Assembly: GCF_014596945.1 (NCBI RefSeq)
Contig: NZ_JACVXB010000002.1
Span: 186,001-250,000, forward strand
DNA from: Aestuariibaculum sediminum
GTDB taxonomy: Bacteria > Bacteroidota > Bacteroidia > Flavobacteriales > Flavobacteriaceae
Reading direction: 5' to 3'
Length of the DNA stretch: 64,000 nt
A program made the translations under genes and the position numbers. The notes below the pieces were generated by a model. It had not been told where the DNA came from and made no database searches. It was given only the letters and a program-made list of their open reading frames with translations. Numbering within the stretch: the stretch's first letter is position 1; each line of letters opens with the position of its first letter. This document shows positions 22,506-57,879 of this stretch, piece after piece.

Positions 22506-22565
22506 TGAATTGATTACATTTTGTAGCGAGAGCGGGGCACGATCCCGCGACCTCCGGGTTATGAA
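22506..22565. repeat. att site: 60-bp direct repeat with truncated tRNA 3' half (copy 1)
   Basis: This 60-bp stretch is identical to 57820-57879. Within it, 22524-22565 equals the 3' part of the tRNA(CAT) gene from the anticodon loop to the discriminator base; the 5' half of the tRNA is absent here. The extra 18 bp lie on the integrase side. This is the classic signature of an integrase crossing over at a tRNA anticodon loop, and marks the junction of two elements. Confidence 0.92.
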
Positions 22566-42113: not shown

Positions 42114-45100
42114 ATGAGATTAATAGCATTAAAAATATTTTTATTATGGTCAGCACTGGGCTTCTCTCAAAAGAAGCCAGCTGTTGAATCTTTTGAATCT
42201 GAAAAAAGCCTCGAGTTTTACGAAATTTCTAATGGAAACCTTACTATTAGTAAAGTGCATAGACGGTTTGGTAAAACTTCACTTCAATGGGAGTGGAATG
42301 GTGAAAGCACTTTCGGAACATCAAACTTTAAAATTCTTTCTCATGAAGAGAGTCCATTAGAGTATGGCGATCATTTTCCTGCTAGTCCGACATTAGCTAT
42401 GTCTATTTACAATGAGACACCAACAAATGAGAAAATTACTGTATTTTTTGAAAAGGAAGGCGTGAATCAGGTCTGGTTCGATATAAAATTATCTTTTAAG
42501 GGGTGGCGACGCATTTGGGTTCCTTTTTACGAGATGCAAGGTAAGGCACCAGAAAAGGAAACATCTGTGAACTATGATTATTTTAAAGTGAAAACTCAGG
42601 CTAAATCCGGAAAATTATTTTTTGATGATATCATCTTTTCACAATATCAGGATGACAGACACCAATATCCGGATATGCTAGTTCCATTCATAAAATCTGA
42701 TCAGGATTTAGCAAAAGATCATTGGATGCCTTTAATAAGAAACTATAAACGTATAGAGACTATTGCGCCCGCGCCAGTTTCTATGGCTATGCGAATGGAT
42801 TTAAAACGGTTTGAGTTAGCTATAGATCAAGATCTGACCATAGACAAGAAATACAAGGTTTACATAAATACACTTCGCGACCTTTTTAACAGTCTTCAAC
42901 TTGAAGATGATGGTAAAACAGTTTTAGGTCCACCTTTAACTTTTAAGGAACAGCAGGAATATTTTAATGAAAATCAACAAGGAGATAAGGTTTTTAACGA
43001 CATAAAAAAATTAGGAACAGTTTTAAAAAAGTTAGCTAATTTTCATGATAGAGCATCTACTGAAGAACGAGATGAAATTGAGTCTATGTTTTTGGCAGGA
43101 ACGAAGTATTTTCTTGATCAAGGATGGCAGGCAGGTTCCAATGGAGGCACTAGACATCATATTGGGTATAATGTTATCGAATTGACACAGGCATTTTATA
43201 TTATGCGGCAGTTTTTATATGACAATAATCTTTTAAACGATGTAGGGGCAAGTCTGCACTGGTTGTTTAATTTAGGGATGATTTTGGGTGATGAAAATGA
43301 ATTTCATGTAAATATCGATTATTTAAATACGCAGTCTTATTATCATTTAATGCTAATATTTTTATTCGATAGTCAGGAAAAACAAGCGGCATTATTAAGA
43401 GCATATTCAAAGTATATATCAATTATTTTAGCACAGCAAAAAGAGGAGTGGGGCTTTAAAGTGGATGGTACTTCCTGGCATCATAACGGGCATTATCCCG
43501 CTTATGGTATAGGTGCTTTTAAGTCAGTTCCAAAGATAATCAATACTTTGGCAGGAACGCGATTTCGTATAGGGAAGGAAGGTCATGAAAACTTTAGAAA
43601 AGCCTTTTTAGCGACAAGAATTTATAGTCAGTTATATAACTGGGGTTTTGGTAATGCAGGGCGTCATCCCTTAGAGAATAATGGTATAGAATCACTTCAA
43701 GAGCAGTTTTTATTAATGGCTAATGCTGGTAACCCCGAAGGTACAAGCAAAATAGATAAAGAAGTGGCTGCTGCGTATTTAAGACTTTGGGGTAAGGATG
43801 ATATCATGAATAAAACCATTTTTACAGATGTTAATGGTATTTATCCTGAGCGATTGCATGGGTATTACACATTACCTTATGCAGCTACGGCAATTCATAG
43901 AAATCAGGACTGGGCTGCTATCGTTAAAGGGTATAGTAAGTATGTATGGGCTTCAGAAATTTATGTTAGCGAAAACAGATATGGAAGGTATCCTGCCAAT
44001 GGAACAATTCAATTATTAAATAGTAATGGTGAATCAGGAAGTGGTTTTCGACAGGAAGGCTGGGATTGGAACAGATTTCCAGGTGCCACTATAATTTATT
44101 TGCCTTTGGAAGAATTGGAGGCTAAAATGCCTTTACTCATGTTTCGCTCTAATGAAACCTTTGCAGGTGCGAACCGCTTAAATGATAATGGTGTATTCGG
44201 AATGATTCTAAATGAAGGTAAAGGGTCTAACGCTGATGGCCTTGAATCTAAAGTAGGATACCCAGGTAAATTAAAAGCCAAAAAGTCTGTGTTTTCGTTT
44301 GGTGATAAATTAATTTGCATAGGGACCGATATATCTAGTATTGATACAAAAAACCCAACCCAAACTAATTTATTTCAAACATATTTAAAAGACACCAAAA
44401 GTCCCGTTATAACAGCTGTGGAAAGCATTAAAAAATTTCCTTATAGTGGAAATTTGAACCCTGATGATGTATCGAAAAATTGGTTGATAGATCCTTATGG
44501 AAATGGGTATCATATTCTTTCAAATGCATTAGTACACATAAAAAAGGAAAGACAACAATCTTATCATAATAAATATTCTGTTAATACTGGAAATATGCAT
44601 CCTAAAGGAAAAGGAGTAAAAGAAACCCAAGGTGATTATGCCAGCGCATATATAAATCATGGTCTCGCGCCTAAAAAAGCATCTTACAAATATGTTATTT
44701 ATCCGTTTTTAGATGAAGAAAAACAATCTAATTTTGATAAAATTGTTAAATCAGAATTAACTTTCGATATTAAACGTGCCGATAGTATTGCACATATTGT
44801 ATTGGATAAAGAAACTAATACTATGGGATATGTAATTTTTGAAGGTAAAACGGATTTAAATAATGGTTTACTAAAAAAGGTTTCAAATCCTTCTTTAGTT
44901 ATGTTGAAAGAAAATGGCGATAAGGATATTAGCTTAAGTGTTGTTCAGCCTGATTTAAATTTCCCTTTAAAGGAGAGTGGCAAATTTAATAACTACAGTC
45001 AGGAAGTATCAGTAACCCTTCTTTTAAAAGGAAAGTGGAGTTCAGTTCCTGTTAATTTTATAGAGCAAATTAGTTATTTAGACGGAAACACTAGTATTGT

Positions 45101-45152
45101 TTTGAAATGTGTTAATGGCTTACCAAGAGAATTTAATTTAAGAAAATTATAA
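42114..45152 (+). CDS. PL8 polysaccharide lyase, chondroitin-ABC-lyase type
   Basis: Secreted eliminase (signal about 1-18) of 1012 residues with the full domain set of ABC-type lyases: an N-terminal jelly roll (about 25-180, FKGWRRIWVPFYEMQG, FDDIIFSQYQDDRHQYPD), an (alpha/alpha) barrel and C-terminal beta domains. Known catalytic positions are matched by DGTSWHHNGHYPAYG (His457, Tyr464), GRHP (Arg517) and RQEGWDWNR (Glu648). Such enzymes cut chondroitin, dermatan or hyaluronan to unsaturated disaccharides. The true substrate here could be a related marine polymer. The GH88, sulfatases and KduD-like enzyme in the same locus support the call. Confidence 0.9.
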   Translation: MRLIALKIFLLWSALGFSQKKPAVESFESEKSLEFYEISNGNLTISKVHRRFGKTSLQWEWNGESTFGTSNFKILSHEESPLEYGDHFPASPTLAMSIYNETPTNEKITVFFEKEGVNQVWFDIKLSFKGWRRIWVPFYEMQGKAPEKETSVNYDYFKVKTQAKSGKLFFDDIIFSQYQDDRHQYPDMLVPFIKSDQDLAKDHWMPLIRNYKRIETIAPAPVSMAMRMDLKRFELAIDQDLTIDKKYKVYINTLRDLFNSLQLEDDGKTVLGPPLTFKEQQEYFNENQQGDKVFNDIKKLGTVLKKLANFHDRASTEERDEIESMFLAGTKYFLDQGWQAGSNGGTRHHIGYNVIELTQAFYIMRQFLYDNNLLNDVGASLHWLFNLGMILGDENEFHVNIDYLNTQSYYHLMLIFLFDSQEKQAALLRAYSKYISIILAQQKEEWGFKVDGTSWHHNGHYPAYGIGAFKSVPKIINTLAGTRFRIGKEGHENFRKAFLATRIYSQLYNWGFGNAGRHPLENNGIESLQEQFLLMANAGNPEGTSKIDKEVAAAYLRLWGKDDIMNKTIFTDVNGIYPERLHGYYTLPYAATAIHRNQDWAAIVKGYSKYVWASEIYVSENRYGRYPANGTIQLLNSNGESGSGFRQEGWDWNRFPGATIIYLPLEELEAKMPLLMFRSNETFAGANRLNDNGVFGMILNEGKGSNADGLESKVGYPGKLKAKKSVFSFGDKLICIGTDISSIDTKNPTQTNLFQTYLKDTKSPVITAVESIKKFPYSGNLNPDDVSKNWLIDPYGNGYHILSNALVHIKKERQQSYHNKYSVNTGNMHPKGKGVKETQGDYASAYINHGLAPKKASYKYVIYPFLDEEKQSNFDKIVKSELTFDIKRADSIAHIVLDKETNTMGYVIFEGKTDLNNGLLKKVSNPSLVMLKENGDKDISLSVVQPDLNFPLKESGKFNNYSQEVSVTLLLKGKWSSVPVNFIEQISYLDGNTSIVLKCVNGLPREFNLRKL

Positions 45153-45178
45153 AAAAGACAAATTTTTAAGTATTAATA

Positions 45179-46696
45179 ATGAATAATTTAATTAAAGGAA
45201 TAGTTAGTGCTGTAGTTTTACTTTACGTTAGTTTTGGGACCTTAGCCCAACAAAGACCTAATGTTATTTTTATTCTGGCTGACGATTTAGGCTATGGTGA
45301 TGTTAGCAGCTATGGAGCTACAAAAATAAAAACACCAAATTTAGATAAATTGTCAGATCAAGGTATAAGATTCACAAATGCACATACAACTTCGGCAACA
45401 TGTACTCCATCTCGTTATGCAATTTTAACAGGACAATATCCTTGGCGAAAGACAGGAACAGGTATTTTACCTGGAGATGCTGCTTTAATTGTGCCAACTA
45501 ATGAAATAACCTTACCAAAGTTGTTTAAAAAGGCAGGTTATAACACTGCTATTGTAGGGAAGTGGCATTTAGGTTTAGGTGAAGCTGTCGATAAAAATTG
45601 GAATCAATCTATTAAACCTGGCCCAAACGAAACGGGATTTGATTATTCCTATATTTTTCCTGCAACAGCAGACCGCGTACCAACGGTTTTTATGGAAAAT
45701 CATAATGTGGTCGCACTAGATTCTTTAGACCCTATTGCTGTAGATTATAAAAACAAGGTTGGAAATGATCCTACTGGTTTGGAGAACCCAGAATTGCTTA
45801 AAATGAAATCCTCGCCGGGTCAAGGTCATAATAATACTATTGTTAATGGCATTGGAAGAATTGGGTTTATGAGTGGAGGTCGCAGAGCAAGATGGACAGA
45901 CGAAGAGGTACCGATGACATTTTTGTCCAAAGCAAAGGATTATATTGAGGATAATAGAGATCATCCATTTTTTTTATTTTATACTTTAACCGAACCCCAT
46001 GTACCTCGAATGCCTTCGACTATGTTTAAGGGTAAAAGCGGTTTAGGCTATCGTGGAGATGCTATTTTGCAATTAGATTGGGCGGTAGGTGAAATAATGA
46101 AGCACCTTGAGTTCTTAGGACTTAAAGAAAATACAATACTTTTATTTTCAAGTGATAATGGCCCCGTTCTGGACGATGGTTATATTGATGGAGCAGTTAC
46201 TCAACTAAATGGACATACACCTTGGGGACCATTACGAGGAGGAAAATACAGCGTTTTTGAAGCAGGTACTCGAGTACCAATGATGTTAAGCTGGCCAGGT
46301 ACCATAAAACCTAAAGTGTCATCCGCTATGATTTCGCAAGTTGATTTATTAGGTTCTTTTTCAAAAATGCTGAATATTGAGTCAGGATGGGAAAAGATGG
46401 ATAGTGAAGATGTTTTGGAAGCTTTATTAGGAAAATCTCAAAAAGGGAGAACATACTTGGTAGAGCAGGGGCTTAGAGATAATTTAGCTATAATAAAGGA
46501 TCATTGGAAATTTATTGAGCCTCATGGAGGACCAGCGATTGAGAGGCTTACAAATATCGAGTTAGGTAACTTAAATAAACCGCAATTATATAATTTATCG
46601 ACAGATATTGGAGAATTGTATAATCTCGCCGATAAGTATCCTGAAAAGGTAAAAGAGTTATCGATACAGTTAGAACAAATTCGTAATAATAATTAA
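45179..46696 (+). CDS. S1-family sulfatase, probably S1_15-like 6-O-sulfatase
   Basis: Secreted sulfatase (signal about 1-23). Cys75 lies in CTPSRYAILTG, the formylglycine motif. ADDLGYGD, GKWHLGLG and SSDNGPV supply the metal site. PWRKTGTGILPGDA and the long insert around NETGFDYSYIFPATADRVP resemble Bacteroides sulfatases of subfamily S1_15, which remove 6-O-sulfate from GalNAc or Gal. The assignment to that subfamily is from memory. It is the last gene of PUL2; PL8 lies 26 bp upstream. Confidence 0.85.
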   Translation: MNNLIKGIVSAVVLLYVSFGTLAQQRPNVIFILADDLGYGDVSSYGATKIKTPNLDKLSDQGIRFTNAHTTSATCTPSRYAILTGQYPWRKTGTGILPGDAALIVPTNEITLPKLFKKAGYNTAIVGKWHLGLGEAVDKNWNQSIKPGPNETGFDYSYIFPATADRVPTVFMENHNVVALDSLDPIAVDYKNKVGNDPTGLENPELLKMKSSPGQGHNNTIVNGIGRIGFMSGGRRARWTDEEVPMTFLSKAKDYIEDNRDHPFFLFYTLTEPHVPRMPSTMFKGKSGLGYRGDAILQLDWAVGEIMKHLEFLGLKENTILLFSSDNGPVLDDGYIDGAVTQLNGHTPWGPLRGGKYSVFEAGTRVPMMLSWPGTIKPKVSSAMISQVDLLGSFSKMLNIESGWEKMDSEDVLEALLGKSQKGRTYLVEQGLRDNLAIIKDHWKFIEPHGGPAIERLTNIELGNLNKPQLYNLSTDIGELYNLADKYPEKVKELSIQLEQIRNNN

Positions 46697-46985
46697 TGGT
46701 TTAATTTAGGGTACTTATAAGAAAACCGTCGTAGGTACCATTCGGAAATCATCTCCAAATAGTGGCGGAATATGCTCATTTTAATTTATAATCATACAGA
46801 TGCTGGTGACGTCCAAAAGGAGTTGATTACAAATAGGATGCGGAGCAAGTTATATAGTATTGAATTAAAGATGAATCGTAGCTTCATCCCTAATTCAACA
46901 CGTTTAAAAATATTAAAAATGAGATAGTTAAAAGAATAAATATTAACTTTGAAGAACTGGACTAGTGCTTTTCATAGGATACATT
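46697..46985. other. Gap between PUL2 and the cassette array
   Basis: No convincing gene. A 51-codon frame (46772-46927, +) has no recognisable features. An interrupted hairpin at 46861-46897 (7 bp, 2x2 internal loop, 6 bp, 7-nt loop) lies between the PUL2 end and the first cassette boundary. It may be a transcription stop for the two converging gene sets or the remnant of an attC-like stem. Confidence 0.4.
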
Positions 46986-46995
46986 GTTGTGTACA
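46986..46995. repeat. Left boundary of cassette unit A
   Basis: GTTGTGTACA here is the exact reverse complement of 47414-47423, the other end of the unit. On the coding (minus) strand it reads TGTACACAAC followed by AATG, the same AAC-AATG junction seen at the ends of units C and D. No matching second stem arm is clear to the left, so this terminal site may be truncated. Confidence 0.7.
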
Positions 46996-46999
46996 GTTT

Positions 47000-47389
47000 T
47001 TATATGTCCAATCTGTCAATTTTCCAATAAACATATTCTCCGATTATTTTTTTATCATTTGTCCAATTTCCAGTATTTAATTCAAATTCTCCGAAATCAA
47101 TATTCACAGGATTAATACTCAAAACCTTTCCATAAGCCTCATATTCCCAATCTCCTTTCCGCTCAATTTTTATTTCTTTTTTAGAATTTTCAGAGAAGAT
47201 AATGTCCCATTCCAATTCAGCACTTATAGAATCTAATTCCAATTCAGTTTTTTGTCCGATTTTGAATTCAGTTCCATATGAAAACGCTTGAATTATTCCA
47301 CCATTTTTACCTTTAAAAGAGACAGTTCCTTCAAAGTGCTCTTTGTCAAGAAACCAATCAGTTTTAATTATTTCTGTCGTTATTTTCAA
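47000..47389 (-). CDS. Hypothetical protein of cassette unit A
   Basis: 129 residues, no signal peptide or membrane segment, beta-rich, with no recognised family. It starts with TTG (47389); there is no in-frame ATG near the start, and the start lies 24 bp inside the unit boundary. Orphan single genes of this kind are typical cargo of gene-cassette arrays. Confidence 0.6.
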   Translation of the reverse strand: MKITTEIIKTDWFLDKEHFEGTVSFKGKNGGIIQAFSYGTEFKIGQKTELELDSISAELEWDIIFSENSKKEIKIERKGDWEYEAYGKVLSINPVNIDFGEFELNTGNWTNDKKIIGEYVYWKIDRLDI

Positions 47390-47413
47390 TCCCTTTGAGG
47401 TTGTTTCTTAAAT

Positions 47414-47552
47414 TGTACACAACGTGTTTGGCTATGGTTTCGTTGCGTGAAAATCCGCAAGGATTTTCCGCTGTAAACCGAAGATAGCAAATTTGCGAGG
47501 ACTTTCCGCTAGGAAAGTCAGAAGCAATGAACTATAGCCGGTGTTACCCAAC
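47414..47552. repeat. attC-like site between cassette units A and B
   Basis: About 139 bp. It runs from the right end of unit A (TGTACACAAC, 47414-47423) to the left end of unit B (GTTACCCAAC, 47543-47552). Inside, imperfect arms around 47428-47446 (TTGGCTATGGTTTCGTTGC) and 47523-47540 pair across a structured centre that itself contains short inverted repeats (GGATTTTCC, GGAAAGTC-like). It resembles an integron attC with a large variable terminal structure. Confidence 0.65.
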
Positions 47553-47557
47553 GTTTT

Positions 47558-48100
47558 TTAATTCGGGTCGATATAATTTCCACTATAATTTCCAGATATC
47601 ACTTTGCCATCTTTTCGAGTAAATGAAAAAGTCAAGTCAACCGTTGTATCTGTCAAGTTGTTAATTGTTACCGTAGAACTTGAAGCGTAAATATCCAAAT
47701 TTGAATCGCCATCAGAAAGAAATACAGTTCCAGGGGTAAATTCACCACTAATTAATGTTCCGTTTATTGAAAAATCATAGTCCCAAATTTCCGTGTATGT
47801 TTTTTCTTGTAAGTCAACTTCGGTAAAATCAAAATAGATAAAAGTAATGTTTGTCAAATCATTGCCACTATTAATTTCTGAGGTCGTTTTATTAAAGAGA
47901 CTTATTCCAATGTCACTTGGGTCGTTAGTTGTTGTATTTTCATCGTTAATCCAAGCAGTAGTTATGTCATAGGTAGTTCCGTTAAATGTAACTTCATTTT
48001 TTGATTGATTTGGATTGTCGCCATTATCGTCCGACGAACAACTTGTGATAAAAATTGTTATAGTAAAAAGAACTACTAATCTGATTCTTTTAAAATTCAT
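47558..48100 (-). CDS. Small lipoprotein of cassette unit B
   Basis: 180 residues with a lipoprotein signal (Cys21, FITSCSSDD) and a beta-rich domain with VTFNGTTYDI and a C-terminal GKVISGNYSGNY. No enzyme motifs. It is co-transcribed with the beta-barrel gene upstream (16-bp gap). The stop is 6 bp from the unit boundary. The function is unknown; secreted lipoprotein/porin pairs in cassettes often serve surface roles. Confidence 0.7.
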   Translation of the reverse strand: MNFKRIRLVVLFTITIFITSCSSDDNGDNPNQSKNEVTFNGTTYDITTAWINDENTTTNDPSDIGISLFNKTTSEINSGNDLTNITFIYFDFTEVDLQEKTYTEIWDYDFSINGTLISGEFTPGTVFLSDGDSNLDIYASSSTVTINNLTDTTVDLTFSFTRKDGKVISGNYSGNYIDPN

Positions 48101-48116
48101 AGTTGATAATTTGAGT

Positions 48117-48713
48117 TTATTTAAAAAAGTAACCTAACGATAGACTCACCACAGAATTTTTATATCTATCGTTTTTAAATATTTCTATTAATCCATAACT
48201 GTATCTTGCTTGTAAAAATAGGCTTTCATTAAATTTCAAGGATAGACCTCCATTTAAAGCAAAGTCAATTGTATTTGTGTTAGTGAACTCAACTTCCTCA
48301 CCTTTGTTATTTTGTGGATATTCAATTTCTCCCTTGCTATCTATTAAAAAACCTATTTGTGGGCCAAAATGAAAACTTAAGTTTTTAATAAACTCAAATT
48401 TTGCTTGAATAGGGATGTCTATGTAGTCTAATTTAGCATCAATTGATATTGTAGGTTCATTTGTGTTACGAATGCTAATCAAACCTCCTTTTTTGTTGTA
48501 AAGCAATTCAGCTTGTAGTGAAAATGATTCTGATAATTCCAATTCTGCTAAACCACCAATATTAAAAGAAACGTTATCGGTAAAGGCACTTTTACCTGTA
48601 TGGAATCCAGAAAGATTTATTCCTGCTTTAGCTCCATATCGAATGTTGTTTTGGGCTATCAATTTTGCAGTAACAATTACAAAAATTATTAAAGTTAGTC
48701 TTTTAATGTTCAT
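48117..48713 (-). CDS. Outer-membrane beta-barrel (porin-family) protein of cassette unit B
   Basis: 198 residues with a signal peptide (to KLIAQ) and the alternating-strand pattern of small outer-membrane barrels: RYGAKAGINLSGF, SLQAELLYNKKGG, KNLSFHFGPQIGFL, and a terminal VSLSLGYFFK. It belongs to the outer-membrane beta-barrel domain 2 group. It starts 22 bp inside the unit B right boundary, leaving little room for its own promoter. Confidence 0.8.
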   Translation of the reverse strand: MNIKRLTLIIFVIVTAKLIAQNNIRYGAKAGINLSGFHTGKSAFTDNVSFNIGGLAELELSESFSLQAELLYNKKGGLISIRNTNEPTISIDAKLDYIDIPIQAKFEFIKNLSFHFGPQIGFLIDSKGEIEYPQNNKGEEVEFTNTNTIDFALNGGLSLKFNESLFLQARYSYGLIEIFKNDRYKNSVVSLSLGYFFK

Positions 48714-48735
48714 AAGTTTATTGTTTGGTCAAAAT

Positions 48736-48810
48736 GTTGGGTAACGGCCCGGCTAAAAAGCGTTGCCGAACCGCAGGGCAGCTATGATTTTTTAGCCATT
48801 GTTAGGCCAC
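48736..48810. repeat. attC-like site between cassette units B and C
   Basis: 75 bp, the most compact site. It begins with the right end of unit B (GTTGGGTAAC, 48736-48745) and ends with the left end of unit C (GTTAGGCCAC, 48801-48810). Perfect 9-bp arms GGCTAAAAA (48751-48759) and TTTTTAGCC (48789-48797) enclose a terminal loop region. The hamB stop codon and last codons lie within the site. Confidence 0.75.
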
Positions 48811-50999
48811 GTTATATTTTCATTTATTTTCTGTTTTTCGTATTCCAATAGGTCTTTTGAATTAAAAAGCTCCTTATCGCGAATAAATTCCAAAACACGA
48901 TCTTGATCTAGGTCAGTTGGAATTTGCTCTTGAATTTTTCTGATTGCACTACCCGGAATACCATATTCACTTAAAATCGCCAAATTTTCACGGAGAAAAT
49001 CGTTTTCAATATGATTTGCGTAATAAATATAGTTCCCTGGTCTTAACCCAAACTCAGCACAAACAAACCTTTGGATTTCACTGACCACCGACAACCATTT
49101 TGGCACTTTATATTGAAACCAGTGCTTCATTATCTGAAAAGTGTCTTGAATAGCCTTGTCCATTAAATCTGCGTCTTCAATATCCTTATTTCCTTCAAGC
49201 CTTCTTAAATAAGCAAAATTGTTATTCACCAAATAACTAATGTCCTGATTAAGACCATAATTAAAGGTCATATTTACAAGTTTACCTTTTGTCATTGGCC
49301 TTGTAGTTTCACCTTCAACAATCAAATTGTCCCAACAAATTCCTAAAATGTACTCTAACTGCTTATAACGTGGTTGATTCCAGCTAATAAGCTCGTATTT
49401 AGAATGAATGTCATTACGTAAAGTATCGAAGATATTCTTCTGACCATGAACTTTAACTCCATTCTTCTTAATTATTTGCCTTTCATTCTCTGGAATAGAT
49501 AGAATAGCTTCATACTGCTCAGAGGTTCTGTCTTTTACTTCCTCTTCTGAGAGTTGAATTAGGATTTCATCTTTAATAGGGTTTTGCTGATAAAATGGAA
49601 TATCAATTATAATTTGCTCTTTCAGAGGAGGAGGATTAAAGTTGTAGATGTTCCCGACATAATGAATCATCATTCTGCCGGCTCTTCCCTTAATATTTGA
49701 GTAGTCAAAATAATCAACATCATTCGGACCCTTTTTTTCATCAAAATAGATTATGTTCTTCGCACTGGTATTGACTCCTTCAATTATCGTAGATGTGCAA
49801 AAAAGATATTTTAATTCTCCCTTATTAAAATAGTCTATTATGGAAGTCGTAATGTGTTTCTGTAATGCACCATCGTGAACACCGATATCATATTTTAGAT
49901 TTTTAAGAATGCTCCATTCTTTGGTTACATAATCAATTATCCAATTGCTTAACGGATATTCATTATTACTGGCTTTCGCTTCAATGTCTGATAAATAATG
50001 GCAAAACTTCTTCGACAGACTTCTAACTCTATTTGGAGAAGAACAATAAATTATTGTCTGCTCATTTTCAAGTTCATGTAATAAGTCAAATAGAACTTTT
50101 TCCTTGAATCGTGCTTTTTTTCCTCTTTGTCCAAACTCCCCTTTGTATTCTTTATAAACATCAATAGATTTAGAATCTACAAGCGAATAATCACTTTTAA
50201 TAAAGACAGCATTGTGTCGCTCGGCAAAACCCTCACTGATTCCATCTATATTAGGGCCTAGCAAGTAGAATTTTGGAGAATAGGTTTTTAATATATGATT
50301 GAAGGCATTATTGAGTGAGGAAGATCTTTCGTCATCTCTATTTCCACTTAATTTATAAAACTCGTCAATTACTAAAAAATCGACATTGAAGAAATCTTGG
50401 TACTCATTTACTCTCTCCGCAGTAAACAGGAAAATATTCCCTTTTTGTTTATCTGATTCTTGTGAAGTTCTAACTATTAATTTATAGTGTTCGCGATACT
50501 TCAATAGTTTTCTACGGGTCTCATCAAGTAGTGCTAGTGTCGGCTGAATTATTACAATATTTTGGTACTTTCTGGATGATACAACTTCTTCAATCAAGAG
50601 GCTTTTACCAAAACTAGTGGGGGCGCTTACAATTACGTTTTGATCTGTCTTTAAGTACTCTAACAACTCTAGTTGCTCTTCATGGAAATATTTTGAAGGT
50701 ATATTTTCTGAATGGTGCAAGCCTTTTCTTATTTCAGCTGGAAGATTTTTCAACCCTTTGAACTCGTCTTTCTCTAAGTATGGATAAAAGCCAGATGACT
50801 CAATTAAATCAATCCATATATCATGAGTCGATTTTTCGAGTTTGTCCCAATTACTCAAAGCGTTAATTATTATTTTACGAGCAGAAGAATCGTCTGTTTT
50901 GAGCAGTGAAGAGCAATATTGAGCATAATCGAAACTTTGATTAAAGTCAAGGGTTTCAAGATTTTCTAAGTCAAATAATATTTCTTCAGAACTACGCAT
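48792..50999 (-). CDS. hamB: HamB-type helicase of a Hachiman defence system
   Basis: 735-residue superfamily 2 helicase. Walker A SAPTSFGKS (about 130), the DExx box VIDEFYKL, a C-terminal helicase lobe with STIIEGVNTSAKN and KGRAGRMM. Preceded by hamA with an 8-bp overlap, which is the Hachiman gene order. In Hachiman the helicase senses or unwinds damaged or phage DNA and releases HamA. The last residues (WPNNG) and the stop codon are encoded by the cassette boundary. Confidence 0.85.
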   Translation of the reverse strand: MRSSEEILFDLENLETLDFNQSFDYAQYCSSLLKTDDSSARKIIINALSNWDKLEKSTHDIWIDLIESSGFYPYLEKDEFKGLKNLPAEIRKGLHHSENIPSKYFHEEQLELLEYLKTDQNVIVSAPTSFGKSLLIEEVVSSRKYQNIVIIQPTLALLDETRRKLLKYREHYKLIVRTSQESDKQKGNIFLFTAERVNEYQDFFNVDFLVIDEFYKLSGNRDDERSSSLNNAFNHILKTYSPKFYLLGPNIDGISEGFAERHNAVFIKSDYSLVDSKSIDVYKEYKGEFGQRGKKARFKEKVLFDLLHELENEQTIIYCSSPNRVRSLSKKFCHYLSDIEAKASNNEYPLSNWIIDYVTKEWSILKNLKYDIGVHDGALQKHITTSIIDYFNKGELKYLFCTSTIIEGVNTSAKNIIYFDEKKGPNDVDYFDYSNIKGRAGRMMIHYVGNIYNFNPPPLKEQIIIDIPFYQQNPIKDEILIQLSEEEVKDRTSEQYEAILSIPENERQIIKKNGVKVHGQKNIFDTLRNDIHSKYELISWNQPRYKQLEYILGICWDNLIVEGETTRPMTKGKLVNMTFNYGLNQDISYLVNNNFAYLRRLEGNKDIEDADLMDKAIQDTFQIMKHWFQYKVPKWLSVVSEIQRFVCAEFGLRPGNYIYYANHIENDFLRENLAILSEYGIPGSAIRKIQEQIPTDLDQDRVLEFIRDKELFNSKDLLEYEKQKINENITWPNNG

Positions 51000-52020
51000 T
51001 TTGCTGATTATATAGTTTTGTGTGTAATCTTTTTAGTAATTCTTTCTTACTTGGAATTGGGAATAGTACGAGTAAGATATTTAGTTCGGTTTTCACAGGT
51101 TCACCAACGTTGTCTTCGATTTCATTTAGCTTATTTTTAAGTAATTCTTGCAACTCAAGCATCTCTTTCTCATACTCTTGAATAAACTCATTTGTGTTTT
51201 CATCAGTGTGAGTTTCATAGAGATTGGATTGATAAGTACACACTAAAGGGATGGTCACAGACTGTAAAAAATCTTGAAGTTTCGCTTCTTTCAATTCCAC
51301 TTTTGATAAAGCATCGAACCAATACTTTTTATCGTCCAAAAATCGAAGGTATTCGTCCTTTGTGTTTTTATCCTCATAATCATCTGGAGGGATGAATGAA
51401 TATTTTTTCTTTCCAATTAATGCTATCTCTCGATATAGAAAGTCCTTTTTAAAGTGAGATTCTATATCACCAATTAAATCAGAAATACCGTGAGATCCAG
51501 CGTTACCATTTTTTCTTGAATATAATTTCGACTCACCAAAATACAATGAGGAGTTTTCTGGATTATTAAGGTCAGGACCAATATGTACTAGGTCAAATCC
51601 ATGAACTGTTGCCCCATCTGTATCTTTAAAATATATTTTAGAGATCAGGGGAATTGTATCGACAAAGTCTCTTAAAAGAAGATGAAGTATTAGCTCTCCA
51701 AATTCTCCCCGTTTTAGGTATTTGTCTTCTAATTCAATTTCACAATCATTGAGACAATCATCCTTATCAACATAGATTGCTTTTGCTTCTTTGAATTCTT
51801 TTATATTGTAAATTGATTTAGCCGCTTCGATTAATTTTCTTCGATCGTACTGTTTTAGAATGCCCGTATGATAACCAAAAGCAAAGTCGACAATTGAATC
51901 CATTAACAATTCAGTCAGTGCATCATACCTAAATTCGCCAAAATCAAACCCAACAAAATAGGTCCGCAAATCAGCTTGTTCAAAATGTTGGTGAATTATG
52001 TTTTTTGAGTTTGGGGGCAT
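50992..52020 (-). CDS. hamA: HamA-type (DUF1837) nuclease of a Hachiman defence system
   Basis: 342-residue protein with the DUF1837/HamA pattern: GEFGELILHLLLRDF, then VHGFDLVHIG and YFGESKLY, which give the Asp and Glu-x-Lys of a PD-(D/E)xK-like nuclease core. In known systems HamA is held by HamB and on infection degrades DNA, so the host cell dies or stops growing before phage release. It starts 20 bp inside the right boundary of unit C. Confidence 0.85.
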   Translation of the reverse strand: MPPNSKNIIHQHFEQADLRTYFVGFDFGEFRYDALTELLMDSIVDFAFGYHTGILKQYDRRKLIEAAKSIYNIKEFKEAKAIYVDKDDCLNDCEIELEDKYLKRGEFGELILHLLLRDFVDTIPLISKIYFKDTDGATVHGFDLVHIGPDLNNPENSSLYFGESKLYSRKNGNAGSHGISDLIGDIESHFKKDFLYREIALIGKKKYSFIPPDDYEDKNTKDEYLRFLDDKKYWFDALSKVELKEAKLQDFLQSVTIPLVCTYQSNLYETHTDENTNEFIQEYEKEMLELQELLKNKLNEIEDNVGEPVKTELNILLVLFPIPSKKELLKRLHTKLYNQQNA

Positions 52021-52040
52021 TTTATGTCAATGTTTTTAAT

Positions 52041-52177
52041 GTGGCGTAACGGTCTAGTATAAGAATAGTAGCGGATTTTTATGCACTAACTTTTCGGCTA
52101 AACACAGACCTTATTTATATTTACTTACTTTCGTTTTAGCGATAAACCCGCTATTATTTTTATACATTGTTGGCGGT
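52041..52177. repeat. attC-like site between cassette units C and D
   Basis: 137 bp, from the right end of unit C (GTGGCGTAAC, 52041-52050) to the left end of unit D (GTTGGCGGT, 52169-52177). The stem arms 52056-52074 and 52148-52166 pair at 16 of 19 positions. The intervening 73 bp are a long AT-rich segment. Architecture as at 48736-48810, with no sequence similarity in the stem. Confidence 0.72.
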
Positions 52178-52185
52178 TCGTTTTT

Positions 52186-54057
52186 CTATTTAAACAGCTC
52201 GTTTTTTTCTTTCAAAATTGCATACATTGTCCTACCTTCTTTTGTAACTCTTACAGTTTCGCCAATCTCATTTGTTATTAAATTTTCAACATCACTATTT
52301 GTTTTAAATTTTTTAGAAATTGATTTTATGTCAGCAAGTTTTACTTTTTTCTTTTCCTTAAGGATTTCAAGAATTTTAGAAGCTAAAACTGAAATAGGTT
52401 TAGAATAAACATCACTAGGTTCAGACGCTATATTTTCTTCTGTCTTATCTGATTTCAAAAATGTTTCAGCTCCTTCTGAACTTAATTCTTTACTAGGCAC
52501 ATAAGTATTCAATGTACTTTCAAAAGCTGTAATTAAAGTTTTTAAATTATTCCTGTCATCTGTTATAAGTTCAGTTGTTGTTTTTGGTAAAATTGCTGCT
52601 CCATAAATTGAACCCCAAAGTGAATAATAAATTATTGGGTTTAAAATTTCTTCTTTTTCATTATTTTCAACGAACTTTAAAAAGTCACGACCTGAAGTAA
52701 ATAAAATTGCTATTGATTTAAGAACTTCATTATTGGTTGATGAAATTTTAAAACCACTTCTTAAACTGTCGAATGATTTTAGGAGTTCTAAAAGATATGT
52801 TCTGTCTGCGGATTTATCAAATCCTTTAATACTTGTTTTAAAGTGTCTAGCAATGTCAATTAGCAATTCTTTTCTATTGATAAAAAAGTACTCAATATTT
52901 TCAATATTATCTGCTTTTATAAAATACAATAAAGTAGAAGTTAAATATTCTTTGTCAGTAGAATTTAGAAATTCGGGCGTTTTTATTGTTAGTACATCAT
53001 TTTTAAACTCTGGAATGATTAAATCATCCAAATTCAGCTTGTTAATCTTTCTAGATAAAGTGATTTGTTTTCCAATAGTGAATTTAATATCATTAAAAAC
53101 ATCAGTTACTTTTTTGATGTAATTACTTGGGTATTTTGAACTATATTTTGAATCTATTGCACGTTTTAACTTTTCAATTTTAAGTAATATTGGTAAGTCA
53201 ATTTTTGACTTACTTAAAATACCTTCAATTAATAATTCATATACTGATGTCTTGAAGATTTCAAACTTCTTAAATGAATTTAGTACGTCAGAAGTAATTG
53301 TTGATTCAAGCATAATTGCTTCATCAAGTGTTTCAGTAGATTCATAAAGAGAGTAGATTTCATCTATAATATCTAAAGACTTCTTTTTTTCAAAGTCATT
53401 TTCTTCACCTATTTTATTTAGAAATAGAGACAGGTTATTGTTTAGAGATTTTAATAGAAGTGATATTTCTTGCCATTCTTTAGAAGTTTTATTTGAAAAA
53501 GCTATTGAACTACCTAAAATAACACCAAAAATTCTGTTTATTATTCTTTCATTTAAGAAAGTATTTGAATTGAGTTCTTTGTTTTTTGACGGTAAATTGG
53601 GGTTAGGTAAATCCATAACGAAACAATCTTCTTTAATCACAACAGAATTCTCTTTTGCAATTTTCGCATACTTTGTTTCAATGCTTTTTAAAGATTTTGC
53701 TAAAGTTTCATTTAGCTCTTGTTCTCTTCTGAAAATTAATTTAAAGTCGTTAAATAAAAATATAGTTTTATCAATTATTATATAATTTACCCCAGTTTTG
53801 TCCTTAATTATTTCAAAGTTATTATTGTCAATACTTGTTTCTAACAATATTGGAAAACCATAATCTTTGTCAATTTCTCTATTATGAAAAATTGGTTTTT
53901 CATAACCTATCAAGAAATTTTCATTCTCATTAAGGAAAGTCGCAGAAGCTCTTTTAAAACTATATTTTCTATTTGGATAATATGAAACAGGCGAAATTGA
54001 TAATGTAGTAAATACACTATTGAAATCGTTTGAGTTAAATGGAATATATACTTTCAT
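52186..54057 (-). CDS. Unknown 623-residue protein, candidate defence partner of an SF1 helicase
   Basis: No recognised family. The N-terminus (MKVYIPFNSNDFNSVF, then SISPVSYYPNRKY) looks like a distinct small domain; the middle is long and helical (about 130-510); the C-terminus (about 555-620, LASKILEILKEKKKVKLADI and RVTKEGRTMYAIL) looks like a winged helix. There is no signal peptide. It lies 9 bp after the helicase gene, within the same cassette unit, next to the Hachiman unit. A phage-defence role is inferred from the neighbourhood only. Confidence 0.6.
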   Translation of the reverse strand: MKVYIPFNSNDFNSVFTTLSISPVSYYPNRKYSFKRASATFLNENENFLIGYEKPIFHNREIDKDYGFPILLETSIDNNNFEIIKDKTGVNYIIIDKTIFLFNDFKLIFRREQELNETLAKSLKSIETKYAKIAKENSVVIKEDCFVMDLPNPNLPSKNKELNSNTFLNERIINRIFGVILGSSIAFSNKTSKEWQEISLLLKSLNNNLSLFLNKIGEENDFEKKKSLDIIDEIYSLYESTETLDEAIMLESTITSDVLNSFKKFEIFKTSVYELLIEGILSKSKIDLPILLKIEKLKRAIDSKYSSKYPSNYIKKVTDVFNDIKFTIGKQITLSRKINKLNLDDLIIPEFKNDVLTIKTPEFLNSTDKEYLTSTLLYFIKADNIENIEYFFINRKELLIDIARHFKTSIKGFDKSADRTYLLELLKSFDSLRSGFKISSTNNEVLKSIAILFTSGRDFLKFVENNEKEEILNPIIYYSLWGSIYGAAILPKTTTELITDDRNNLKTLITAFESTLNTYVPSKELSSEGAETFLKSDKTEENIASEPSDVYSKPISVLASKILEILKEKKKVKLADIKSISKKFKTNSDVENLITNEIGETVRVTKEGRTMYAILKEKNELFK

Positions 54058-54066
54058 TTTACTTTT

Positions 54067-55122
54067 TTAAAAAGGTAAATCGTCATTTACAGAATTTTTA
54101 TTCTTTTCGTTATGATACTCAAATAGATTTCTGTCGATATTTTCAATAAAACTTGATAAATGATTTGAGTATAAAATGAATAAATCACGATAACTTCTAG
54201 TTAGTGCAACATATAATGGGTTTCTATCTTTTTCATCACTTCCAATGCACATTGGAATGAAAACCGCCTCAAATTGAAGTCCTTTTGCACTATGATAGGT
54301 CATTAATTTAGGATTTTCGGTTGTAAAATCTAAATCCATTGAATTAGAACCATATCCTATTTTGGCTTCTACACCCCAATTTGATTTGTCAAAATAGCTT
54401 TTTGCTATTTTGACATCATTATTTGTTGGCAGTAATATACCGACATCAGTATAATTTTGTGCTTTAACAACATCTTTTATATAATCCAATTGGTCTTCAA
54501 AAGAAGAACATTCCACTAACCTTGGTTTATTAACTCCTTCTTTATTACATCTGTCTTCTAACGGGTCTCTAGATTGAGTTACTTTTTCTGCAATTCGAGC
54601 TACTTTTTTTGGCAACCTGTGATTAATTACTAAATTTTCCATTGGAATATTAGTTTGGATTTGGATTTCCTCCATTGTCAGAAGTTTACCTTTGTTCGGT
54701 ATGTTTTTGTAGAGTTGTTGTGCTGAATCTCCAAAAAGGATAAAATGTTTTTTAGCTGCATTTTGTAAATCAGCTAATTCGTTAGTATCAAAATCTTGAA
54801 CTTCATCTACAATTATATATTCAGCTGATGCCTTATCTCTTCGATTTACCCATTCCCAATGATAAAGTACTTTAGATTCGTCAACTCCAATAGTGTGTAT
54901 TCCATCTTCAATAAATTGTTTCAATGCTTTTGTAAACACGATAATCAAGTAATCATTATTTCCTTGTTCAGCAAGTTCTTTTGCTCTCCACAGTGCTAAA
55001 ACAGTTTTTCCACTTCCTGCACAGCCTTTTACAATAAAAGAACTGCTTAAATTTCTACGCACTATTCTTACTTGATAATCATCAAGTTCAGATTCGTTTA
55101 TGTACCAAGATTCTTTTGCCAT
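54067..55122 (-). CDS. Compact UvrD-like SF1 helicase/ATPase
   Basis: 351 residues with the main SF1 motifs: Q-like DDYQVRIV, Walker A GCAGSGKTVLALW (about 33), Walker B IIVDEVQDF, GDSAQQLY (motif III), NHRLPKK (motif IV), TYHSAKGLQFEAVF (motif V) and YVALTRSYRDLFIL (motif VI). It is short for UvrD/Rep (about 700) and lacks the 1B/2B insertions, like helicases of several two-gene defence systems. It starts 51 bp inside the unit D boundary and is followed by the 623-residue gene. Confidence 0.8.
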   Translation of the reverse strand: MAKESWYINESELDDYQVRIVRRNLSSSFIVKGCAGSGKTVLALWRAKELAEQGNNDYLIIVFTKALKQFIEDGIHTIGVDESKVLYHWEWVNRRDKASAEYIIVDEVQDFDTNELADLQNAAKKHFILFGDSAQQLYKNIPNKGKLLTMEEIQIQTNIPMENLVINHRLPKKVARIAEKVTQSRDPLEDRCNKEGVNKPRLVECSSFEDQLDYIKDVVKAQNYTDVGILLPTNNDVKIAKSYFDKSNWGVEAKIGYGSNSMDLDFTTENPKLMTYHSAKGLQFEAVFIPMCIGSDEKDRNPLYVALTRSYRDLFILYSNHLSSFIENIDRNLFEYHNEKNKNSVNDDLPF

Positions 55123-55173
55123 ATTTTTTTATTCTATCTAAATATTCTTGTTTAGCACTCTGTTTCTTAAATG

Positions 55174-55210
55174 ACCGCCAACGTGTGTATAAACACACTG
55201 GTGTGTTTAT
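55174..55210. repeat. Right boundary of cassette unit D with adjoining hairpin
   Basis: ACCGCCAAC (55174-55182) is the reverse complement of the unit's left end (52169-52177). Next to it is a 22-bp dyad with 10-bp arms (55189-55198 and 55201-55210, spacer TG). No further cassette boundary is recognisable to its right. It may be the entry end of the array, in the place an attI-like site would have, or the edge of a lost cassette. Confidence 0.6.
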
Positions 55211-55282
55211 TTTTATTATATATACAACGAATATAAGGTAATTACTTAATTAGTAAAATGATTATTCGTACAATTACCCAAT

Positions 55283-55711
55283 TTATAGATAAACTAATTC
55301 CTGAGTTTCAATATCGTAATATGGTCGTTGCCCAAATTGATTTGGTTGTAAATTGGTAACCGGAAAATATCTAGCCCCTGCAATAAGTGATTTTAATTCC
55401 TGAAATTCTTTTTTAGTAATAGATTTGTTTTCTTCTTTGGTTGCCCAGTTTATTAATCTATCAGCCAAAAGAGTACCAGCCATAGAATTTCCAACACCAG
55501 CAAGACTCATTGTGTCTTTTTTTGCTTTTTTTTCTGGGGTAATTTCAGTAGAAGGTAAGCTTTCTTCTGAAAGTGTTTGTAAAACATTTTTTACCTTTCT
55601 AGCATGGTGTGCTTTATTACGACAAGTGTCGCTGCAATACTTCTGTACACGACGTCTTTTAGGTTCAAATTCTTTAAAACAATACTGACATTTGTAAAAT
55701 CTACTTTCCAT
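55283..55711 (-). CDS. Zinc-ribbon protein of recombination module 2
   Basis: 142-residue homologue of 19927-20382: Cys8, Cys11, Cys26, Cys30 in a CxxC-x14-CxxxC ribbon with basic PKRRRVQKYC, a shared LSEESLPSTE linker, MSLAGVGN, and the conserved end YFPVTNL and GQRPYYDIET. The last gene of the module, it probably binds the palindrome just upstream of its start. A role as repressor or excision factor is inferred. Confidence 0.75.
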   Translation of the reverse strand: MESRFYKCQYCFKEFEPKRRRVQKYCSDTCRNKAHHARKVKNVLQTLSEESLPSTEITPEKKAKKDTMSLAGVGNSMAGTLLADRLINWATKEENKSITKKEFQELKSLIAGARYFPVTNLQPNQFGQRPYYDIETQELVYL

Positions 55712-55718
55712 AATTTAG

Positions 55719-55742
55719 CGTAAAATAAACGTTTGTTTTACG
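55719..55742. promoter_or_regulatory. 24-bp palindrome before the zinc-ribbon gene (module 2)
   Basis: A 24-bp palindrome with a single mismatched pair: CGTAAAA at the left, AAACGTTT at the centre, TTTTACG at the right, 8 bp upstream of the start codon. It has the same length, centre and outer arms as the core of the module 1 palindrome (20390-20413). The conservation between two modules that differ widely in sequence argues for a binding site. Confidence 0.72.
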
Positions 55743-55776
55743 TATAATACCGTTGATTTTGAGTTTTAAGTTAATT

Positions 55777-56430
55777 TTAGGTGACATTTGTAACCATTTT
55801 TATGGGAATGTTAAAAACCGATTCTAATAAAAATGCATCGGCATCAGCATCACTAATCAATTGTTGCTTTTTAGGTTTTGGCTTTAACACAGGTGTTTTT
55901 TTAGTTTGTGTTGTAAGGTATGTATTGGCACTAAAACCCCTCGTTTTTTCCTCAAAGGGACTCCCTTTTATAAGTTTTGAAAACTTGGTTTTTATTTCGG
56001 AGTGATGAACTTTAAAAGCATCAAATTGCAATTTAAAAAGCGACCTAACATTTTCCGATAAATTAACAAAATACTTACCTAAATTCACATACATTAAATA
56101 AGTAATGTTGACATGAATGTCTAGATGTTCCCAATATTTATTCATTAAAAATTGAAACTGACTTTCTGTTAGTTTTTCTTGAGCATCTAAAAGTAAAAAG
56201 AGGTTTTCTTCGAACAGGTTATATTTTGTGGCTATTTCAACTCTACTAAATTTTGTTTCATCAGCTGTTATTTCTTCTTTACGGTTTCTAAAGGCGATAG
56301 TATTGATTGCACCAGGTGGCACTAAATCCTTAAATTCTGTTTGTTGAAACTCGTTATATATTGTATCTGGAATATAAAAAATGTATGATCTTGTTAGATT
56401 ATCACGTATGGTTTTAAAAATATCGTTCAT
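55777..56430 (-). CDS. Accessory protein of recombination module 2 (unknown family)
   Basis: 217 residues, 3 bp after the integrase stop. Helical with a basic linker (KTPVLKPKPKKQQ), and a C-terminal ISDADADAFLLESVFNI that aligns with the end of the module 1 protein (20435-21148). The shared tail suggests a conserved contact, perhaps with the integrase, while the bodies have diverged. Function unknown. Confidence 0.7.
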   Translation of the reverse strand: MNDIFKTIRDNLTRSYIFYIPDTIYNEFQQTEFKDLVPPGAINTIAFRNRKEEITADETKFSRVEIATKYNLFEENLFLLLDAQEKLTESQFQFLMNKYWEHLDIHVNITYLMYVNLGKYFVNLSENVRSLFKLQFDAFKVHHSEIKTKFSKLIKGSPFEEKTRGFSANTYLTTQTKKTPVLKPKPKKQQLISDADADAFLLESVFNIPIKMVTNVT

Positions 56431-56433
56431 ATT

Positions 56434-57783
56434 TTATTTTAATAAGTGTGAATAATCCTCTGGTATCGCTGCATCGATACTTCTTAGGTATTTTTCAAGC
56501 GCATTCATTGTGGAATGCCCAGTGATTTGCATAATTCTACTCTTTACTTCGTTTGGTGGATACTGAGAAATTAACGATTGATATAATTTGGTGATAAACG
56601 TATGTCTAAAGCTATATAAACCATAATTATCGTCTATATTGAAATGCTCTTTGACAACCTTTTTAAAACGCTTTGAAAAGTAGTTTCTTTTATTGTTTTC
56701 TTCGGTATCCCAGAAATCACCTAATTTATCAGGGGTGAAAAGAAAACTCTCGGGATCAAAACCACTTAAATCAGGAAGTTCTTCAAGCAACATGTCGGGA
56801 ATGCGTTTAACTTCTAAAGCATTGGTTTTCGATTTAAACTGTATGAGTCCTTCTGCAACATTAATGTCTTTTATTTTAAGCCTGCATACCTCAATTGGCC
56901 TTAAAAAGTTATAGGCAACAAACTGAATATAGAGTAGGAGTATAGGATCTTCCTTTTTTAGGTAATTAAATATTGTAGTTTGTTGTTCTTGAGAATAGGT
57001 TTTGTTTCGTTCAGGTTTGGCTTTTAAAACCTTAATTTTCTTTACGGGATTAGTAACAATGATGTCGTTATCCTCCATGGTTTGCAAGAGTGCGCCAAGG
57101 TTGGTTCTATGATTGTTAAAACTTCTTGCACTGGTGTTTGAAAGCACATGATTAAGGAAAGTTTGAACTACGGCCTTATCAATTTGGTTGATTGTCTTTA
57201 TTTCTGGCGCAGATTCATTCAACCAGTCTGTAAATTTGTTAGCGTGAAACGTATAATCTTTAAGGGTTCTTTCACTAATAACATTCTTTTTAAGGTTTAA
57301 GCTTAAATCGAAAGCTTCCTTAATAGTAGGCGAATTAGGTTGAGGTTTTTCTAAGAACTTGCTTGTTTGATTCTTTCCTTCATTAGATGAGTGAGCAGGT
57401 TGAACTTTAGGTGCTACTTCGGTTTTAATCTGTTTTGGTTTTATAGCTTGAGCTTTCTCCTTTTTAAATAAAGCTTCGTTATTTTCAAAAGGATTGTAGC
57501 CTTTTTTAAGAAGAATAATAAGTCGTTTTCTATAAGTGGTTAAAACCGAAAGCCGCTCTTCTTTCTTTTTATAAGTATTGGCAATACCATAAATGTTTTT
57601 CATTCGCTCTAATTTACCTGTTTTAGGATTGCGAAATGAAAAATAAACATACCAACGTTTGTCTAAATTACCGTTGGCTGTATAGATTTTTGGGGTTGAA
57701 AATTGGGGTTTTTTACTCAAATCGTGTTCAAAAACGTGTTCACTTCTGTGTTCAAATGTAAGAAATTCATTTAAATAAGACAT
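56434..57783 (-). CDS. int: Tyrosine recombinase (integrase) of module 2
   Basis: 449-residue relative of 21141-22469. NFLRPIEVCR, SFRHTFITKL, ITGHST and the nucleophile Tyr432 in LEKYLRS are present, with the SAM-like domain at about 160-265. The ATG at 57783 directly follows the terminator T-run. It is the likely enzyme that inserted the 22506-57879 element at the tRNA. The CGTGTTCA boxes in its first codons recur at the far end of the element. Confidence 0.93.
   Translation of the reverse strand: MSYLNEFLTFEHRSEHVFEHDLSKKPQFSTPKIYTANGNLDKRWYVYFSFRNPKTGKLERMKNIYGIANTYKKKEERLSVLTTYRKRLIILLKKGYNPFENNEALFKKEKAQAIKPKQIKTEVAPKVQPAHSSNEGKNQTSKFLEKPQPNSPTIKEAFDLSLNLKKNVISERTLKDYTFHANKFTDWLNESAPEIKTINQIDKAVVQTFLNHVLSNTSARSFNNHRTNLGALLQTMEDNDIIVTNPVKKIKVLKAKPERNKTYSQEQQTTIFNYLKKEDPILLLYIQFVAYNFLRPIEVCRLKIKDINVAEGLIQFKSKTNALEVKRIPDMLLEELPDLSGFDPESFLFTPDKLGDFWDTEENNKRNYFSKRFKKVVKEHFNIDDNYGLYSFRHTFITKLYQSLISQYPPNEVKSRIMQITGHSTMNALEKYLRSIDAAIPEDYSHLLK
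57723..57754. repeat. Three putative integrase arm sites, type CGTGTTCA, inside int of module 2
   Basis: CGTGTTCA (57723-57730), CGTGTTCA (57735-57742) and TGTGTTCA (57747-57754) at exactly 12-bp spacing, in the codons that encode a Glu-His repeat of period four (SEHVFEHD). The same boxes occur at 22575-22659, the other end of the element. Confidence 0.7.
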
Positions 57784-57814
57784 AAAAAAAGCGGTTTATG
57801 AAACATAAACCGCT
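57784..57814 (-). terminator. Intrinsic terminator between the tRNA and integrase 2
   Basis: Minus-strand stem of 11 perfect pairs (57790-57800 with 57804-57814), 3-nt loop and seven U, ending at the integrase ATG (57783). It ends the tRNA transcript 24 nt after the tRNA and shields the integrase gene from read-through. Confidence 0.82.
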
Positions 57815-57819
57815 AATTG

Positions 57820-57879
57820 TGAATTGATTACATTTTGTAGCGAGAGCGGGGCACGATCCCGCGACCTCCGGGTTATGAA
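57820..57879. repeat. att site: 60-bp direct repeat overlapping the tRNA 3' half (copy 2)
   Basis: Identical to 22506-22565. It spans from 18 bp beyond the tRNA 3' end to the anticodon loop (to base 32 by tRNA numbering). The DNA to its right completes the intact tRNA. Confidence 0.92.

Follow-up and report, generated by a model that had tools for sequence, protein, structure and literature searches.

Classical integrons recombine gene cassettes at sites whose R′ core follows the consensus GTTRRRY, using the single-stranded bottom strand, and a common Pc promoter drives their promoterless cassettes. Sedentary chromosomal integrons, such as those of Vibrio, Xanthomonas and Treponema, bring together a tyrosine recombinase, an attI site and long arrays of co-oriented cassettes, the attC sites of which fold into hairpins and carry AAC and GTT triplets. 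Bacteroidota, or the Bacteroidetes/Chlorobi group, are among the integron carriers named in passages of five papers taken together (PMC9024848, PMC8618304, PMC9668308, PMC3607928 and PMC2426708). In the passages concerned, the IntegronFinder 2.0 paper (PMC9024848) reports that an earlier survey had found only In0 in Bacteroidetes, that a single complete integron was later identified in Salinibacter ruber, and that others are known in Chlorobi and Ignavibacteriae. The phylum was therefore already known to have integrons. Here we analyse a 64,000-nucleotide stretch of Aestuariibaculum sediminum DNA (‘the window’), in which positions 46986–55182 carry four gene units. With a probability of about 0.88, we read these as integron-type gene cassettes of Bacteroidota, most likely served in trans by a recombinase of a type encoded on another contig (C6) of the same genome. 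Complementary unit ends, a conserved attC-like site, an attI copy identical to that of C6 and the linkage of recombinase genes to arrays in relatives, all read from sequence, carry this view. Among the papers listed by our literature search, which had preprints and most subscription papers outside its scope, none describes such arrays.

The four units lie head to tail on the minus strand, in the transcriptional order D, C, B, A, where a preliminary description of the DNA had placed them (Table 1). Each opens with GTTR and closes with the reverse complement of its own opening (9, 9, 10 and 10 of the first 10 bases matching in D, C, B and A), so that the unit-specific inverted termini first described are real, as are the shared gene orientation and the one or two genes per unit (two in D, C and B, one in A). 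Spacers described as stems of 75–139 bp do exist, although the gaps between units are 118 (D–C), 55 (C–B) and 119 (B–A) bases and the claimed range depends on where a stem is cut. First start codons, put at 20–51 bp inside each unit, lie at 30, 32 and 34 bases in C, B and A (a TTG in A) but at 60 bases in D.

Matching ends and spacing alone are not beyond chance; the junctions are. In 20 stretches of relatives’ DNA around matches to the D–C junction (L066–L085), cassettes were called 137 times, against 16 in the reversed DNA, and chained cassettes 123 times, against 2. Together with the window’s own ends, these counts support the proposal that each cassette bears complementary halves of its own recombination site. 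The scanner used here requires ends and stems, and its 170 chained cassettes include 2 from the window and 5 repeats, leaving 165 distinct. End positions 12–14, which the scanner does not require, agreed in 82–91% of the 170 and position 11 in 1%. The longest open reading frame ran along the array in 136 cassettes and against it in 6; the other 28 contained no frame as long as about 50 codons. When junctions were chained by ends alone, with no stem requirement, 334 were found, noise included, compared with 46 in reversed DNA, and Watson–Crick pairing between the arms over 16 positions was 0.57 within a junction compared with 0.41 with the arms of other junctions (324 distinct junctions; p 4e-25). 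A scan for isolated cassettes over 450 kb of the window’s own contig (C14) gave 17 calls, 2 of them the window’s, and 17 in reversed DNA; since the counts are equal, single-cassette calls were rejected as noise.

To describe the attC-like site, we built a covariance model, R1, from 41 sites (40 from relatives and the window’s D–C site), with E-values that are rough owing to a shortened calibration. The covariance-model check suggested in the preliminary description, run with R1, matched the B–A and C–B junctions, both outside the model (Table 1). On the array form, 13 arm pairs were predicted from these 41 sites, which had been picked for their stem, and 11 pairs had changes on both sides. The 170 chained cassettes begin GTTR(T/G/C), and GTTRRRY fits 15 of them and none of the four window cores, bearing out the earlier remark that the cores are non-canonical. 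Among 163 distinct sites, position 11 has a top-strand A.C mismatch in 137, equal to a bottom-strand G.T pair, and the left arm has the same bias (366 A.C and 68 G.T on the top strand). Refolded with each cassette’s own ends, the bottom strand was the more stable in 161 of 163 (mean −28.1 versus −23.9 kcal/mol); modelled hairpin energetics thus favour the bottom strand, and recombination may proceed through that single strand. Folding energies of the junctions in array form were rejected as evidence (minus-strand z −0.44 for D–C, −0.97 for C–B and −3.85 for B–A); such values are expected where R″ and R′ stem from different cassettes. A second size class of about 200–215 bases was seen in 19 of 119 R1 matches (L116, L081, L133, L121, L122, L124 and L134). 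In Rfam, searched over 45000–58000, tRNA alone passed its gathering score.

The array is headed by a putative attI copy. Over 44 bases plus GTT it is identical to the attI of C6 at 47/47 positions (46/46 in a separate comparison), and because of this identity we read the window array as an attI with cassettes and no adjoining integrase gene. C6 carries what would be the platform: a gene for a 386-aa recombinase (C6:24258–25418), attI with its GTT 63 bases past the end of that gene, a first cassette, and attC sites at 25954 and 26681, shortly past which the contig ends (26876). The absence of a visible integron integrase, stressed in the preliminary description, is true of the window, but a candidate recombinase thus stands elsewhere in the same genome. 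Its suggestion to look for further arrays in the genome and in relatives was borne out. R1 sites in the genome number 12: four on contig C12, two on C6, three in the window and three single. In relatives, recombinases of about 350–400 aa (some reading frames being shorter) lie near 18 arrays. The start of the first cassette, sought as a match of at least 9/10 to the R″ of the first attC, was found in 17 of these 18, and lay at most 150 bases from the recombinase gene in 13 of the 18 mapped arrays. Seventeen genomes were picked because both positions could be read on one contig; the nearest listed site lay 0.5–16.5 kb away and, among the matches listed, was downstream and co-directional in 13 and divergent in 4. 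Some array-near recombinases (L083, L130, L132, G431, G439, G446 and G458) diverge from their array, as in classical integrons. A Persicobacter plasmid carries a homologue, with two sites downstream of it.

In five genomes of the genus, 14 attI copies were considered. By script, 10 of them are followed by a first cassette whose ends match, and inspection adds 1 more; another escaped scoring by the script but has R1 sites downstream. In 3 of the 14 a recombinase of the family is in or beside the locus. This survey indicates that attI-headed arrays are dispersed, unlike the classical layout. Contigs G311:C36, G345:C35 and G000:C6 end little past the recombinase, a sign that assemblies may break at arrays and that counts of arrays are too low.

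The C6 protein resembles integron integrases and differs from them. It is about 31% identical to IntI1 over residues 118–385; in a 38-row tree, array recombinases group with IntI1 and a Legionella plasmid recombinase (support 84/97), with the genome’s other recombinases apart and long branches elsewhere; and the first PDB fold match of its structure model (mean pLDDT 80.4) is the integron integrase IntI4 (2a3v), followed by XerA. It passes the NCBI model NF040815, ‘site-specific tyrosine recombinase/integron integrase’ (227.7 bits, cut-off 220), whereas examples of recombinase groups b and c fall just under it (214 and 215). Archaeal XerA resolves chromosome dimers and is not known to be associated with cassettes. 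For the IntI model TIGR02249 the C6 protein stays below the cut-off (208 versus 265 bits, in two matched stretches), compared with 508 bits for IntI1. An IntI-specific additional domain near patch III is named as defining for IntI in a passage of PMC9668308. This insert of about 42 residues is absent from all 20 array-near recombinases aligned with IntI1, in which the GKG..KDR and RHSFAT motifs are 78–79 residues apart instead of 120. The earlier suspicion of a different recombinase is thereby strengthened, with the candidate, attI and cassette sites standing together on C6. Most members of groups a–c have an extra N-terminal domain (pLDDT 87.5 when modelled alone), which in fold searches gave weak matches (E 0.2 or worse) that include XPB and the HARP domain of SMARCAL1; because these are weak, a role as hairpin reader would be a guess.

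These enzyme data also bear on whether the array is a cluster of attC sites lacking integron-integrases (CALIN), a remnant of a classical integron made by a canonical IntI that was lost or acts in other cells. Such a remnant would have the identical cassette anatomy, with the same AAC and GTT triplets, and the window does hold three attC sites with neither an IntI-like gene nor a recombinase of the C6 family, though with an attI copy. However, canonical IntI scored above cut-off in 0 of 18 searched genomes and 0 of 397 genomes of the family, where IntI1 serves as the positive control because 14 control genomes were silent with TIGR02249 as well. The best IntI-like matches in the 18 genomes lie below the family cut-off, yet several adjoin arrays. 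R1 at E 1 found no site in two plasmids with intI1, the intactness of whose attC sites is unverified, and both the missing insert and the rarity of GTTRRRY cores speak against a canonical maker. We consider this origin unlikely indeed, and the Bacteroidota integron reading the better account.

Sites and recombinases of this kind are widespread. Of the 397 family genomes, 255, from 182 of the 237 genera, had matches to the D–C junction, with identities reaching 94% beyond the genome it comes from; most of the matches listed start at query positions 7–11 (AAC being at 10–12) and end at 131–135 (GTT at 131–133), and some extend past those borders. R1 at E 0.001 found sites in 350 of the 397 genomes (220 of 237 genera), with at most 7 candidates scored per genome in the family and 20 in a phylum sample of 158. 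In that sample 70 genomes had attC (E 1e-6), 55 the recombinase (profile E 1e-75) and 43 both (Fisher p 4e-10); leaving out the family itself, the recombinase occurred in 28 of 55 attC-positive and 12 of 87 attC-negative genomes (p 3e-6). For four recombinases of the phylum sample, the profile match starts only at about position 95. A search of plasmids with the B–A junction gave no match. The D–C junction matched one Polaribacter phage, in two records, at 72% (P12002S, KR136260.1, 39837–39959), and phages may carry such cassettes.

The array lies within a 35.3-kb island at tRNA-Met (22506–57879), whose two ends share a 60-base direct repeat overlapping that tRNA gene. Modules flanked by dif sites are moved by Xer enzymes, and the island’s 449-aa tyrosine recombinase, whose gene is 1.3 kb from the array head, or XerC/D, might mobilise the units as in pdif modules. 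This is very improbable: the 449-aa enzyme falls outside the IntI1 clade, on long branches, arrays elsewhere adjoin the other recombinase family, and the sites, asymmetric and about 146 bases long, are unlike dif sites. The tRNA-Met repeats at both ends suit the enzyme as its own att sites. We rejected it as the cassette enzyme; it is probably the integrase of the tRNA-Met island.

Evidence of movement comes from a second species of the genus (G115), in which an 81% alignment of the island begins at the tRNA, passes through the integrase and stops 4 bases before the GTT of D. The attI of that species precedes another first cassette, of 1,348 bases with 10/10 ends, and further attC sites lie beyond; by this comparison one attI holds different cassettes in two species, which answers in part the earlier call to find units in another order or context. 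In 30 pairs of similar cassettes, mean identity was 0.94 for the cassette’s own attC, 0.68 for the preceding 110 bases and 0.61 for the next cassette, the baseline for random attC pairs being 0.67. Cassette copies thus mostly keep their own attC, and the unit of movement would be a gene with its downstream attC and a crossover at GTT, with exceptions given below. Alternatively, the units could be fixed operons between whose genes a dispersed palindromic repeat (MITE- or REP-like) has inserted. This could account for the D–C spacer being a family-wide repeat and for the good folding of the B–A spacer. Insertion would not, however, give every unit its own matching ends, nor would such a repeat move together with just one of its two neighbouring genes, and different cassettes at the same attI would be left unexplained; we regard it as extremely improbable and retain integron-type cassettes as our reading.

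A number of results weigh against that reading. In a random-sequence control of the kind proposed in the preliminary description, 37 of 40 second-order Markov shuffles (GTT and AAC fixed) reproduced chains of at least four GTT...AAC units with at least 9/10 matching ends, and 9-base GTT inverted pairs are common within the window. Ends alone are therefore weak evidence, and we rejected them as proof of cassettes; the 94–100% complementarity at end positions 4–9 of the 170 cassettes is largely built in because the scanner requires 8 of 9. The 30 pairs comprise 26 within and 4 between genomes, and 15 come from one six-copy cassette of G014. Preceding DNA was also alike (0.76–0.99) in 6 of the 30 and the next cassette (1.00) in 1, and among the four pairs between genomes the attC was shared in one (0.90) and stood at 0.43–0.64 in the others. 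No copy of units A–D was found in another context. Seven HamB relatives (60–73%) in other orders, rejected as evidence of swapping, had no R1 site in the fetched stretches. Two of the 14 attI copies lack a following cassette with matching ends; one recombinase-linked array (G101) failed the start search at 8/10, and in another (G291) a runner-up place also reached 9/10. At the thresholds used, 12 of 55 recombinase-positive genomes were without attC matches and 27 of 70 attC-positive genomes without the recombinase. Sequence profiles rank XerA above IntI for the recombinase.

We propose that a cassette would start at GTT, continue through its gene or genes to R″ (...AAC) and finish with the attC that belongs to it, directly in front of the following GTT. 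The attC bottom strand would fold to a hairpin from R″/R′ and L″/L′; a tyrosine recombinase acting in trans, most likely the 386-aa C6 protein, would cut at the GTT of the folded strand, and excised circular cassettes would be joined to attI or attC at GTT. The window array, attI-D-C-B-A, is seated at the attI copy inside the tRNA-Met island. Catalysis by a C6-type recombinase, recombination of the bottom strand, trans action on dispersed attI copies and circular intermediates are what the sequence patterns lead us to infer. Compared with sedentary chromosomal integrons, the system differs in a recombinase that lacks the IntI-specific insert and mostly has an extra N-terminal domain, in GTTRNNN cores, in an integrase that is often co-directional and, in this genus, in several dispersed attI-headed arrays per genome. 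Some Treponema attC, of 115–132 bases, are similarly long (PMC3607928). More tentatively, and at somewhat less than even odds, these arrays may belong to a separate integron lineage, widespread in Bacteroidota, that recognises hairpins without the IntI domain, perhaps through a HARP/XPB-like N-terminal domain, with the strand chosen by the G.T/A.C asymmetry and one integrase serving dispersed attI arrays in trans.

The cargo of the four cassettes is listed in Table 1. Cassette C holds a Hachiman system, with adjacent genes for HamA (DUF1837) and the HamB helicase in the order A–B and strong profile matches, as in known HamAB. It differs in being packaged as a cassette and in the end of HamB, the final codons of which extend through R″ into the attC arm (48792–48803); since the stop codon lies inside that arm, the recombination site itself encodes the protein’s C-terminal residues. 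Cassette D (52186–55122) pairs a UvrD-like helicase resembling GajB/NERD with a 623-aa protein that had no Pfam match up to E 1 and no PADLOC match up to 0.001, a candidate new defence pair. Among the 65 of 129 cassette proteins of relatives that were scanned were ParE-like toxins (2/65), a sulfatase, HerA and other PADLOC defence-candidate matches, and many proteins without a family.

Table 1. Features of the cassette array and the surrounding island (positions in the window)
Feature	Position	Strand	Details
attI copy heading the array	55183..55226	-	palindrome AAACACACCAGTGTGTTT, then ATACACAC, then crossover GTT
Cassette D	52169..55182	-	ends GTTGGCGGT...ACCGCCAAC; two genes
Cassette C	48801..52050	-	ends GTTACGCCAC...GTGGCCTAAC; Hachiman
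Cassette B	47543..48745	-	ends GTTACCCAAC...GTTGGGTAAC; two genes
Cassette A	46986..47423	-	ends GTTGTGTACA...TGTACACAAC; one gene
attC-like site of D, D–C junction	52037..52182	-	R1 110 bits (model member)
Short attC-like site of C, C–B junction	48732..48814	-	R1 34.9 bits, E 3.8e-6; outside model
attC-like site of B, B–A junction	47410..47556	-	R1 113 bits, E 3.7e-24; outside model
attC of A, probably truncated, array/island border	46940..46999	-	R1 10.3 bits, E 1.7; alone not significant
D gene 1, UvrD-like superfamily 1 helicase, 351 aa	54067..55122	-	Pfam Viral_helicase1, UvrD_C; PADLOC NERD+UvrD and GajB profiles
D gene 2, 623-aa protein	52186..54057	-	no known family
HamA, 342 aa	50992..52020	-	Pfam HamA 2.8e-35; PADLOC HamA1 2.3e-95
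HamB helicase, 735 aa	48792..50999	-	PADLOC HamB1 2e-235
B gene 1, outer-membrane beta-barrel protein, 198 aa	48117..48713	-	Pfam OMP_b-brl_2 3.1e-23
B gene 2, 180-aa protein	47558..48100	-	no family above cut-off
A gene, 129 aa, unknown	47000-47389	-	no Pfam match up to E 1
Tyrosine recombinase, 449 aa	56434..57783	-	Pfam Phage_integrase; outside IntI1 clade, on long branches
Island end, 60-base direct repeat overlapping tRNA-Met (57837-57911)	57820..57879		identical to 22506-22565
Other island end, 60-base direct repeat	22506..22565		

An integron-like system with a seemingly unusual recombinase thus seems very common in this family. Integrons are sparsely reported from Bacteroidetes in the passages cited above, compared with cassette sites in 350 of the 397 genomes examined from a single large family. 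If our reading is right, a major route of gene exchange, defence systems included, has gone largely uncounted in one of the commonest bacterial phyla, and the IntI-specific domain would not be essential for cassette recombination. Were the separate lineage real, whole chromosomes would be multi-site landing pads for cassettes, trading defence genes.

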